Origin: Halorhabdus tiamatea SARL4B
GTDB taxonomy: Archaea > Halobacteriota > Halobacteria > Halobacteriales > Haloarculaceae
DNA length: 64,000 bases
Direction of reading: 5' to 3'
Assembly (NCBI RefSeq): GCF_000470655.1
Contig: NC_021921.1
Span: 372,001 to 436,000 of the forward strand
This document shows positions 26,223 through 42,032 of the stretch, one piece after another. The translations under genes and the position numbers were made by a program. How positions within the stretch are numbered: the stretch's first letter is position 1; every line of letters begins with the position of its first letter. The notes beneath the pieces are model-generated. The model was not told the DNA's origin. It ran no database searches and was given only the letters and a program-made list of their open reading frames with translations.

Positions 26223-26304
26223 GGTGGGGTGGCAGAGCGGCCTATTGCGCCGGTCTTGAAAACCGGTGGCGCAAGCCTCCTGGGTTCAAATCCCAGCCCC
26301 ACCG
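26223..26304 (+). tRNA. tRNA-Ser (anticodon TGA)
   Basis: An 82-base cloverleaf of class II form. The acceptor GGTGGGG pairs with CCCCACC (26297-26303), with discriminator G. The anticodon stem CCGGT/ACCGG carries loop CTTGAAA, giving anticodon TGA. A long variable arm (TGGCGCAAGCC region) is typical of serine tRNA. The T arm is CTGGG-TTCAAAT-CCCAG. CCA is not encoded. Confidence 0.95.
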
Positions 26305-26526
26305 CCTTCTGCGCGAACGAACGTGAGCGCTGAGCGGTGCAACTGGGATTTGAATCACGGCAGACGCGCGCAGCGAAGCGAGCACGTCTGGCATCGGGTT
26401 CAAACACCGCGGGACAAAGTCCCGCGAGGCTCGCAAACGCTTCGCGTTTGCTCACTCCCGATCGACTCGCTTCGCTCGCCGATCGACGTTTGCCTCGCGA
26501 TGCTCGGCAAACTCCCAGCCCCACCG
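26291..26526 (+). repeat. Duplicated tRNA-Ser 3' end and hairpin-rich spacer
   Basis: TCCCAGCCCCACCG, the 3' end of tRNA-Ser at 26291-26304, is repeated exactly at 26513-26526. The roughly 210 bases between hold no credible gene but several hairpins (GCGGGAC..GTCCCGC; GATCGAC-type with TCGCTTCGCTCG; GCAAACGC..GCGTTTGC) and T-arm-like scraps (GGGATTTGAATC, GGGTTCAAAC). It looks like an att-type duplication left by integration at the tRNA gene. Confidence 0.6.
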
Positions 26527-38969: not shown

Positions 38970-39019
38970 ACCCGCGATATACAAGTAGACGAACTTAAGC
39001 CCCCGGTTTGCCGTCGCGT

Positions 39020-39883
39020 TCAAACCAGCCGATCGTCGCTGTTGGACGCCCACTCCTCGCAGGCGTCCATGTCTTCGAGATACCGACCGTGATGGGAACA
39101 GTACGGTTCGAGTCCGTCGTCAGTTCGGACGTAGTTGAACTGCTCGCAGTTGCCACAATAGCGGTCCGGTTGCCCGCGTGTCGGGGCCGACTCGACGGAC
39201 GAGCCGTCAGCAGACGACTCAACTGTCGTCGAACCGCCATCACTGGCGGCCTGGCGCGTGGCACTGAAACTGTCCGAGCGATTGCCCGTCTGCGTCGGCA
39301 CCTCGCCGTCAGGATCGGTCCCGAACAGGCCGATCCCGCCGACGCCGGAAACGCCCGTCTCGGCGGCCTCGACGAGTTTGACCGTCCCCTCCTCGGTGAT
39401 CCGCATCTCGGCGGCCCCGCCAGGCGACTTTCTGGTCTTGAACGTCGCGATCGCGACGAACAGACACCACCCAGTCGTGATCGCCCCGACGAAGTACACT
39501 GCGAGCGTCATCAGCGAGAGCGCCGGATCGGCGGCCGGCGCACCCGGCCACTGCGTCGGGTAGGCGTAGGTAAACAGCGCGACTGCGAAGACTGTCAGAC
39601 TCGCGCCGATCGCGATGGTCGCCCGCGTGAGCCGACTCGTCGGCAAAATTGCGAATAGTCCGACGAACGTTGCGGGCAGACCCACTCCAGCGAGAATGCC
39701 GGCCCACTCGCGTGCGCCGTAGACGCCGAGTCCGAGTGCCGACCCGATTCCCGTTGTCGCCAGGAGAACACCGACGGCAACCAGGCTCAACCCGACTGCG
39801 AACAGCGCCAGACCCGCGAGCACCCGGCGACGGCTCGCGACCGCACCGATCCGCCGCTGGTAGACGTCCGTCAAACTGGCCAT
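39020..39883 (-). CDS. Membrane protein with C-terminal zinc-binding-like motif (DUF7139-like)
   Basis: A 287-residue protein. About five helices lie in residues 20-150 (VLAGLALFAVGLSLVAVGVL onward), then a Ser-rich linker, then DRYCGNCEQFNYVR and PYCSHHGRYLEDMDACEEW, a CxxC...C-H-H...C set that could bind a metal. I recall similar haloarchaeal proteins (DUF7139). The function is unknown. The ATG at 39881-39883 is chosen; an in-frame codon at 39898 adds five residues. Confidence 0.65.
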   Translation of the reverse strand: MASLTDVYQRRIGAVASRRRVLAGLALFAVGLSLVAVGVLLATTGIGSALGLGVYGAREWAGILAGVGLPATFVGLFAILPTSRLTRATIAIGASLTVFAVALFTYAYPTQWPGAPAADPALSLMTLAVYFVGAITTGWCLFVAIATFKTRKSPGGAAEMRITEEGTVKLVEAAETGVSGVGGIGLFGTDPDGEVPTQTGNRSDSFSATRQAASDGGSTTVESSADGSSVESAPTRGQPDRYCGNCEQFNYVRTDDGLEPYCSHHGRYLEDMDACEEWASNSDDRLV

Positions 39884-40058
39884 GCTGGACGATACCACGT
39901 TCTCGTACTAAACAGTGCGTCAGACACCTGTCTTGCGATCGGTGTCAGTTCGGTTCCCGAACGCAGCAGACCGAAACCGTAGCGGGTGTCAGTTCCGAAG
40001 CAACTGGCCGGGTGTCGGTTCCGAAAACACTAATCGCCGCCGCGGCCAAGCGCCCGCT

Positions 40059-40346
40059 ATGGCAGACGACACCGACGAAGAGACAGCGGGACCACCGATC
40101 GAACTCGGTGACGGCCCGGAGGTCGCCGGCGTGCCCCTCGCCCGCATCTCCTCGCGACTCACGTACGGGATCGAGAAGAGTGCGATCCGCCGCCGCGAGG
40201 GCGACACCGAAATCCGAACCCCGGACGGCCCGCAGGCCCTCGGAGACGTACTCGACTCGGTCGACGTCCCGTATTTCGAGCGTCGCCAGGAGTTCGAGAC
40301 GGCGGTTCGTGAGGAGATCGGGGCGGGGCCGGTTCCGACGGAGTGA
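40059..40346 (+). CDS. Conserved haloarchaeal protein (DUF5789-like)
   Basis: A 95-residue soluble protein. PIELGDGPEVAGVPLARISSRLTYGIEKSAIRRREGDTEIRTPDG matches the haloarchaeal family I recall as DUF5789. The ATG at 40059 follows the low-information upstream stretch. The function is unknown. It stands alone between a divergent gene and a 420-base gap. Confidence 0.65.
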   Translation: MADDTDEETAGPPIELGDGPEVAGVPLARISSRLTYGIEKSAIRRREGDTEIRTPDGPQALGDVLDSVDVPYFERRQEFETAVREEIGAGPVPTE

Positions 40347-40501
40347 CGATCGCGACCGGCGCGGGTTTTTGCGGCTACAGTTCAATCGATACGGCATATC
40401 TCTACTCGTTCCAGCAGGATCGGCCAATGAGACGCTCCTGATAGAGTTCGCAAGTCGACAGTGGGAGTTCAAAATCCGGAACGTCAATCGAACGTGAACC
40501 A

Positions 40502-40576
40502 CCTCGGGATCAAGTCGTTCGAGAATCTCCGATTCTCGTGATCACGGAAATCTCCGATTTCCGGACGACCCCGAGG
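40502..40576. repeat. Three-stem inverted-repeat element
   Basis: An outer stem CCTCGGG (40502-40508) with CCCGAGG (40570-40576) encloses two perfect 8-bp hairpins. The first is CGAGAATC-TCC-GATTCTCG (40520-40538) and the second CGGAAATC-TCC-GATTTCCG (40545-40563). Both have the same TCC loop, and the palindrome TGATCA (40539-40544) lies between them. Together they can fold as a three-way junction. It lies in the 424-base gap between the DUF5789-like gene and tRNA-Thr, which holds no credible gene. It could be a structured RNA, a small transposon relic or a protein-binding site. Confidence 0.5.
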
Positions 40577-40671
40577 CACTCGGCCTGTTCCGCCTGTCGA
40601 ACCAAACAAACGAACTCAACGTTCGAATGGTAAGAGACCAGGCGGTCTATCACTTGCGTGCTTATTCTAAA

Positions 40672-40690
40672 CCGGTGGGGGATTTGAACC
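40672..40690 (-). repeat. Degenerate copy of the tRNA-Thr 3' end
   Basis: CCGGTGGGG-GATTTGAACC repeats the plus-strand reading of the tRNA-Thr 3' end (40772 onward), with one base missing, about 80 bases beyond that gene's 3' end. A second T-arm scrap (GATTCAAACCCA) lies between. Confidence 0.6.
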
Positions 40691-40769
40691 ACGTTCGTTT
40701 CGCACCGCTCACTCTCTGATTCAAACCCACGTCGCTCACACTGGGCTCACGTTCGTTCGCCCGTAGAAG

Positions 40770-40844
40770 AGCCGGTGGGGGGATTTGAACCCCCGGCCTA
40801 ATCCTTACGAAGGATTCGCTCTAGCCAGTCTGAGCTACACCGGC
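40770..40844 (-). tRNA. tRNA-Thr (anticodon CGT)
   Basis: A 75-base cloverleaf. The acceptor GCCGGTG pairs with CACCGGC, with discriminator T. The D arm is GCTCAGACTGGCTAGAGC. Anticodon stem AATCC/GGATT carries loop TTCGTAA, giving anticodon CGT. The T arm is CGGGG-GTTCAAAT-CCCC type. CCA is not encoded. Confidence 0.94.
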
Positions 40845-40943
40845 ATTCACGTCCTGGCGCTACCATCACATGGTCCGCAACGACCAGGTGCGTACTCACA
40901 CGTAGTGGCGATGACCGCAATAAGGATTGCGAATCGAAGCCCC

Positions 40944-41924
40944 TTAGCGAGTGATCCGCACGTCGAGGACGACGTTCAACTCGTGGGGAGCGTACGACCG
41001 AACCGTGTGGCGGGTCTCTACTGTCACGTCGTATTCCTCGCCTGCAGCCTCGCGGATCGCCCGCTCACCGGGACCGAACGGATCGTCCTCGTGGGCGATG
41101 TCGTAGTAGTGAATTACGGCCTCGTCGCTCGCGAGGGCCACGGCCGTCTCTAAGAACTCGTCGGCACTGTGAGGGAGGTTCATCACGATCCGGTCGGCCC
41201 AGTCGGTGTATTCCGGGACAGTGTCTCGGACGTCACCTTCGATCGCCGTAATCCGTTCGGCGACATCGTTGTGTCGGGCGTTCTCTCTGAGATACTCGAT
41301 CGCGTCGGGGTTGACGTCGCACCCGACGCAGGTCGCCCCTCGTTTCGCCATCGGGACGACGAAGGGGCCGACGCCGGCGAACATGTCGAACGCCCGCTCG
41401 TCGGGCTCAACCTGCTCGACGACGCGATGGCGCTCGGTCGCCAGCCGGGGCGAGAAGTACACCTCGGCGAGGTCCAAGGCGAATTCACACCCGTACTCGC
41501 GGTGGACGGCCTCGGTGCCGTCGCCGGCGAGGACGTCCCACTCGCGGACGCGCTGCTCGCCTTTGACCTTCGAGGCGCGGTTGGCGACCGTCTCGACTGG
41601 GAGATCCGAAGCCATGATTGCGTCGGCAATCTCGCGTGCGCGGTCGAGATCGTCCTCGTCGACGATTACGACTTCGCCGAGACGCTCGTAACTCGGCTCG
41701 AACCCCAGGACGTCGGCGGGCATCGTCTGGCCCTCGCGGACTGGCGCGTCGTGCTCGACGACAGCGTACTCTTCGGGCACGGCCGCCGGATCGACCACCG
41801 GAATGAAGATTGCATCCTCGACGACGTCGATCTCGTGACCGTCGTCGATCAGATCGCGCTCGGCGAGGCGGGCACGCGTCGCCTCGCCGTCCTTGCGGGG
41901 AACGCGGACGCAGGGCACAGCCAT
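40944..41924 (-). CDS. trm5: tRNA (guanine-37-N1)-methyltransferase Trm5
   Basis: Methylates G37 next to the anticodon, which prevents frameshifting. It has 326 residues: an N-terminal D1 domain (CVRVPRKDGEATRARLAERDLID), a central domain, then a class I methyltransferase with VYFSPRLATERHRVVEQV, FDMFAGVGPFVVPMAKRG, VGCDVNPDAIEYLREN and the catalytic-site loop RIVMNLPHSADEFL. It is typical of archaeal Trm5b. It diverges from dphB. Confidence 0.9.
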   Translation of the reverse strand: MAVPCVRVPRKDGEATRARLAERDLIDDGHEIDVVEDAIFIPVVDPAAVPEEYAVVEHDAPVREGQTMPADVLGFEPSYERLGEVVIVDEDDLDRAREIADAIMASDLPVETVANRASKVKGEQRVREWDVLAGDGTEAVHREYGCEFALDLAEVYFSPRLATERHRVVEQVEPDERAFDMFAGVGPFVVPMAKRGATCVGCDVNPDAIEYLRENARHNDVAERITAIEGDVRDTVPEYTDWADRIVMNLPHSADEFLETAVALASDEAVIHYYDIAHEDDPFGPGERAIREAAGEEYDVTVETRHTVRSYAPHELNVVLDVRITR

Positions 41925-42032
41925 GTCAAGAACTGAGACCGGTCGAGCGGTAAGCCTGACGTTTCACCGTCGCGATCCCGGCGAGCACACCTGGAACGCT
42001 TCGCTTATGCCCACGCCACGCCCAGCAGACCT

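Follow-up and report, generated by a model that had tools for sequence, protein, structure and literature searches.

A probable 54-bp SMR-like cassette nested in a transposase-less IS200/IS605 remnant in Halorhabdus tiamatea

Results

The hairpin cluster at positions 40502-40576 of the window, by which we mean the whole 64,000-nucleotide stretch of the Halorhabdus tiamatea SARL4B genome analysed here, is very probably a 54-bp SMR-like cassette nested in a transposase-less remnant of an IS200/IS605 element. A first-pass annotation had described these bases as a single three-way-junction element. Its building blocks are all present: twin 8-bp hairpins with TCC loops (40520-40538 and 40545-40563), TGATCA between them, and a 7-bp closing stem formed by CCTCGGG at 40502-40508 with CCCGAGG at 40570-40576. 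Such order had been judged unlikely by chance, in agreement with our finding that none of 20 dinucleotide shuffles of the window contained two perfect triloop hairpins (8 bp or longer) within 30 nt of each other. Single hairpins of this kind numbered 10 in the real window, against a mean of 3.35 per shuffle in the 20 shuffles. What had been read as one element is actually two, one inside the other, and the three-way junction is the IS605 hairpin stem plus an inserted hairpin pair. The closing stem exists as described but is not special to the pair; its strands are the arms of an older palindrome around two footed hairpins. The conserved unit is also longer than the noted 75 bases, spanning approximately 40494-40600, from GTGAACC (40494) to CCTGTMGA (40600). 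The features are as follows; the limits given for the outer element in the window are taken from relatives.

40494..40595, minus strand: putative terminal-only IS200/IS605-type element (PATE-like), with termini shared with the full IS
40502..40508, plus strand: 5' arm of the IS605 terminal palindrome, CCTCGGG, read from the sequence; the eighth base, A40509, is mutated from G, and relatives have the plain palindrome CCTCGGGGTCAAGCCCCGAGG
40510..40514, plus strand: TCAAG, the ancestral IS605 hairpin loop and left flank of the cassette insertion, from plain relatives
40515..40568, no strand assigned: 54-bp twin-hairpin cassette (SMR-like mobile repeat), from covariance model R1
40515..40541, plus strand: hairpin unit 1, TCGTTCGAGAATC-TCC-GATTCTCGTGA, with covarying pairs including the foot pair 2-26
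40542..40568, minus strand: hairpin unit 2, inverted, TCGTCCGGAAATC-GGA-GATTTCCGTGA on the minus strand, from the sequence and its covarying stem
40569..40576, plus strand: 3' arm of the IS605 terminal palindrome, CCCCGAGG, from the sequence and relatives
40596..40600, plus strand: target remnant GTCGA; other copies have GTAGA (TCTAC on the opposite strand), which is kept at the left end of relatives

The cassette is built from two hairpin units of about 27 nt with the consensus TCGT-NCGRRAATC-nnn-GATTYYCG-TGA, the second lying on the opposite strand. Each unit pairs U1-A27, C2-G26 and G3.U25, followed by a bulge and 8 bp, and the TGATCA of the annotation is the join of TGA and TCA where the two units meet. 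Across 21 aligned cassettes, 98.4% of cells are paired, and 62 double-change cells were counted against 18.6 in shuffles, while slid controls failed. Homologues with compensatory changes, the check that the annotation had proposed, were thereby found by covariance model and alignment, and its suggestion of selection for shape holds. The partner of position 2 (C or G) is position 26 in its own hairpin (GC 12, CG 6, GU 3), and each hairpin is therefore its own unit. A closing stem belonging to the pair was considered and rejected: position 2 covaries with position 26 of unit 1 (column 28) and not with position 53, which lies at the far end of the cassette and is always G.

The annotation further stated that the two hairpins keep loop and length, which the wider alignment contradicts. 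The triloops are hypervariable, lengths of 54, 56, 58 and 60 occur, and the conserved parts are the stems and feet. Since the two loops match each other in no more than 2 of 33 cassettes, the identity of the TCC loops in the window copy means little and, judged from these sequences, is a coincidence; selection for identical TCC loops was rejected. Cassettes score nearly equally on both strands and lie in either orientation in coding and non-coding DNA. Model R1 finds one copy in the window, scoring 70.7 bits on the plus strand and 63.2 bits on the minus strand.

We compared the outer element with its relatives. Second copies, which the annotation had suggested looking for, amount to 14 full or partial matches in the same genome, and the element is present in 7 of 7 Halorhabdus genomes. 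Read in the tnpB orientation (minus strand), it runs from AGGCGGAACAGGCCGAGTGCC at the left end to GGTTCAC at the right end. Two copies in the same genome (G000) bracket a full transposon, G000:C2:2181603-2183732, which encodes a TnpA Y1 transposase (PF01797, 4e-40) and a divergent tnpB (PF07282, 1e-16) and carries the palindrome with a hairpin pair at both ends. In the window copy, the left-end outer sequence is fused to the right-end outer sequence, with no gene between them and no transposase. Searching the genus with the flanks of twelve copies, joined together, recovered empty sites. For the full transposon, the empty site in a relative reads CACCGACAGAG joined to GTAGATCG and contains GTAGA once; therefore, the left-end target is TCTAC and is not duplicated, as expected for IS200/IS605. 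At the window copy this target has changed to GTCGA, and no empty site of that copy itself was found in the genus genomes.

The hallmarks of IS200/IS605 elements were each found: a Y1 gene between matching ends of the intact copy (absent from the window copy itself), a fixed short target 5' of the left end without target duplication, and the subterminal palindrome CCTCGGGGTCAAGCCCCGAGG at both ends of relatives. Terminal-only copies also exist without the cassette (L035 and L045, 53 bp; L029, 46 bp). PATE remnants of Haloquadratum arise by deletion between two similar palindromes (PMC3119063), and the window copy resembles them in its fused left and right ends, near-terminal palindrome, lack of target duplication and core deletion between direct repeats. 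It differs from them in that the palindrome loop holds a cassette and the target family in Halorhabdus is TCTAC. On all of these sequence features, the outer element classifies as IS200/IS605-type and PATE-like. Two near-identical terminal palindromes would have recombined, with loss of the tnpA-tnpB core, to leave the outer remnant; intact relatives are at hand. The earlier suggestion of a transposon end was thus about half right, as the parent is an IS200/IS605 transposon and the locus holds two nested mobile sequences, not one.

Insertion of the inner cassette was visible among eighty tnpA relatives, nearly all haloarchaeal. Downstream of tnpA, at the left end, 52 loci have the plain palindrome CCTCGGGG-TCAAG-CCCCGAGG (8-bp hairpin, TCAAG loop), and at six a further 51-56 bases stand precisely between TCAAG and CCCCGAGG. 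A seventh carrier, L116, is visible and partly unresolved. Five of the seven left-end cassettes are related to that of the window, and L153 and L162 carry another kind of hairpin pair at that very base. Right ends are plain at about 52 loci and bear a cassette at nine. The TnpA of Halobellus clavatus L097 is 100% identical to that of H. tiamatea, and its ends are plain. At one genomic site, Natronococcus A-GB7 is plain and A-GB1 has a cassette of 58 extra bp; the next 110 bp are identical, as are 53 of 60 bp outside, and the strains differ also by a second, unrelated 56-bp hairpin pair. The absence of the cassette from most relatives points to insertion, with loss conceivable in single cases, and the Natronococcus pair is the strongest case. 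Neither this pair nor the plain palindromes indicate target duplication by the cassette. By this comparison, an inverted REP-like hairpin pair entered the IS605 palindrome loop precisely after TCAAG, between (R)RG and C.

Cassette-bearing contigs assigned to Haloquadratum were also seen (L108 and L164). Twin-hairpin cassettes of unrelated sequence (45-56 bp) sit in IS605 palindromes, in tnpA or in the tnpB 3' region at L061, L063, L065, L137, L145, L148, L153, L162 and L150 (1057-1112). The intact transposon has a third cassette, at L046 2794-2847 (G000:C2:2181793-2181846), in the tnpB 3' end or wRNA region, between GGAAGGTG and CGACGGC; at this position the plain relative L097 matches RF02657 (below gathering score) and L046 has no match.

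The target rule, (R)RG before the insertion and C after it, was derived from 22 distinct flank contexts that are not all independent, representing about eight unrelated sites. Position -1 is G in 22 of 22, position -3 is a purine in 22 of 22, and the base after the insertion is C in 20 and T in 2. Nesting goes further: a 52-bp pair of another type lies between GATC and ATCAC of the cassette in the L010, L011 and L261 copies, and at L259 the cassette is itself inside another type of hairpin pair.

Many relatives also have cassettes within tnpA, in fixed positions: site A follows YEILS (11 carriers in the codon alignment) and site C follows SAHPK, with another cassette after FVWCPK (site B) and a third after FVWC. 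The inserts in tnpA are nearly all multiples of three bases (L162 and L167 break the frame); loop cassettes measure 54, 56, 58 or 60. Some copies at site A keep the reading frame open, and most bring in TGA. We observed this in-frame TGA at L113, L126, L127, L129, L131, L144 and L147; the rest of tnpA stays open in the stop-bearing copies except L147 and is conserved, with a dN/dS of about 0.08 downstream. As this value (0.08) equals that of uninterrupted copies and the insertions look recent, it proves nothing on function.

Carriers of site A cassettes are scattered over the tnpA tree among close non-carriers (L126 and L107 are 96.7% identical; L151 and L117, 99%). No linked SNPs were found near the site except at two positions of the first codon after it, which is CTC in 11 of 11 carriers (p=0.001); these positions belong to the target. 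The scattered, unlinked carriers speak more for recurrent insertion at a target sequence than for gene conversion. All site A cassettes share the stems GAGAGAC/GAAAATC, which gene conversion easily explains and which descent or insertion would also fit; either route may apply.

The covariance model detected the cassette in 7 of 7 Halorhabdus genomes and, within the order, in 76 of 81 sampled genomes, five being listed without a match. Outside the order, four of the other genomes sampled from the phylum had it, and no sampled genome elsewhere did. These four, G033, G043, G051 (f16 g65) and G162 (f31 g101), have weak to moderate matches (E 4e-6 to 2e-8, 2-9 per genome). Of 40 sampled strong distant matches, 14 have tnpA or tnpB within 1.5 kb, compared with 0 of 20 controls; the fraction is biased upward because the 40 are the top of the list from a model built partly on IS605 copies. 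Several further distant matches lie in the same palindrome, GGGGTC..CACTTGACCCC, and no genes are close by. About a third of the sampled distant matches are away from recognisable IS605 elements, many of them in hairpin-rich intergenic arrays. Separately, large branched intergenic arrays of nested hairpin pairs occur at L013, L014, L020, L025, L033 (G005, G006), L219-L229, L232 and L233, in the context GAGGAGCG followed by TGGTTCG..GACAGCGAG and without recognisable IS605 genes.

Discussion

Comparison of relatives thus documents a cassette with precise insertion, a target preference, hairpin feet under selection, polymorphism and no target duplication. How it moves is a more tentative matter. 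By analogy with IS200/IS605 and REP/BIME elements, it is most likely a REP-dimer- or BIME-like passenger carried as single-stranded DNA by a Y1 (HUH) transposase, for example the IS605 TnpA acting in trans, a reading to which we give, on its own, somewhat less than an even chance. Such movement has been proposed for REP/BIME elements (PMC3733652; PMC8266576, PMC6006769) and for PATEs. At L046, cassettes flank tnpA as passengers in both ends. No Y1 match was found in G003 and G005, yet both of these genus genomes hold cassettes; therefore, some other enzyme may move them, or the mover may since have disappeared. The cassette probably parasitises, and often disables, IS605 elements, and it probably harms its host transposon, as proposed for SMR-A. 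The intact transposon of H. tiamatea may tolerate cassettes, since both of its ends and the right-end side carry them.

Homologous recombination or gene conversion among IS605 copies, in place of transposition of its own, is a less likely but serious account of how the cassette spreads. It would explain why one-site cassettes keep the same stem pair and orientation, and deletions joining two cassettes (L165 and L168) fit it. However, the carriers at tnpA site A lack linked flanking SNPs beyond the target codon, and one and the same cassette is found at about eight unrelated sites that share the RG-before-C target, as well as in the centre of another cassette. We regard as unlikely the broader proposal that twin-hairpin cassettes are a class of archaeal micro-parasites that home to palindrome dyad centres (IS605 loops and other cassettes) and to fixed transposase-gene sites between RG and C, nearly always in frame, with stop-bearing copies functional through RNA- or ribosome-level bypass or removal.

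The annotation had also offered a structured RNA, and one transcribed from 40494-40600, such as part of a TnpB guide RNA (wRNA), would draw on the covariation, on the position of the cassette in the right-end hairpin of wRNA-type loci, and on the right-end palindrome that adjoins a haloarchaeal RF02657 match (below gathering score) in the intact relative L097. The search of 39000-42000 gave no match to RF02656 or RF02657 (wRNA / sotRNA) and nothing in Rfam at gathering level apart from tRNA-Thr. A solo wRNA guide was rejected, as the solo element has nothing of the conserved wRNA body that lies between tnpB and the right end. Moreover, cassettes score nearly alike on both strands and sit in either orientation, and the empty sites, polymorphic presence, lack of target duplication and many unrelated contexts mark mobile DNA; we consider the RNA quite improbable. 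The intergenic position between a DUF5789 gene and tRNA-Thr might recall a bidirectional terminator or mRNA-stability hairpin, but copies lie in transposase genes, in hairpin loops and on a second replicon, no T-run follows and the neighbouring genes are unrelated, leaving this with very little probability. Template switching can make perfect palindromes; a slippage or chance origin is nevertheless refuted and has practically no probability, since 76 of 81 genomes in the order share the cassette, which shows compensatory changes and a constant target.

For the nested mobile cassette that we favour, the closest known system is SMR-A of Haloquadratum walsbyi (HqIRS42/43/55; PMC3119063). Both are tiny and gene-less, have inverted ends, make no target duplication, and target near-terminal palindromes of IS605-type transposons and PATEs. 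The mobiliser of SMR-A is unknown (PMC3119063). SMR-A is about 110 bp with prominent ITRs, whereas the cassette has 54-60 bp and 7-nt imperfect feet; most SMR-A events are outside ORFs and in-frame tnpA insertion is not described for them (PMC3119063), whereas the cassette enters tnpA in frame. Compared by description, the two differ in length and ITR form, and we therefore file the cassette as SMR-like and not as SMR-A. To judge from its sequence, it is an SMR-like new variant: it works like SMR-A at half the length, its anatomy is resolved, and it is found within coding sequence as well. Our search of the open literature found no haloarchaeal papers on such repeats besides PMC3119063.

REP dimers or BIMEs with RAYT (TnpA_REP) and CGTC-tagged REPs, which have no known transposase, share the inverted hairpins of about 27 nt, conserved feet, high copy number and stems of about 8 bp (PMC3733652; PMC8266576). 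The cassette differs in having triloops instead of 4-5 nt (CGTC type), the foot TCGTNCG..CGTGA, a home in Archaea and a concentration in IS605 elements rather than intergenic dispersal. Its foot, TCGTNCG, is not the GTAG tag, and no RAYT gene was found beside cassettes; only IS605-type Y1 genes were seen in the genus. Rickettsia palindromic elements (RPE) and the bypass palindromes of Magnusiomyces (cited in PMC6649704) are also palindromic units inside coding genes, often in frame; here the host genes are transposases and several inserts have an in-frame stop.

A vague, one-species class of IS605-attacking repeats thereby gains an anatomy, a target rule, an order-wide range and natural before/after pairs, and which enzyme moves SMR- and REP-type repeats therefore becomes testable in tractable haloarchaea. 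The case also presents a transposon parasite of 54 bp whose insertions into transposase genes come in multiples of three bases. It is also a clear example of how palindrome-within-palindrome nesting yields look-alikes of complex RNA junctions.

Other repeats were seen in the window. A partial copy of the tRNA-Thr 3' half (ccggtgggggatttgaacc), att-like, lies at 40672-40768, about 100 bp from the tRNA-Thr gene (40769-40844), as is also the case next to tRNA-Ser. Beside tRNA-Ser (26223-26306), a second pair of 8-bp triloop hairpins, CGCGGGACAAAGTCCCGCG and GCAAACGCTTCGCGTTTGC, occupies 26408-26451 within a stretch repeating pieces of the tRNA 3' part; it resembles a degenerate relative of the GTGGGAC..CGAACGGCGC pair nested in L010/L011.
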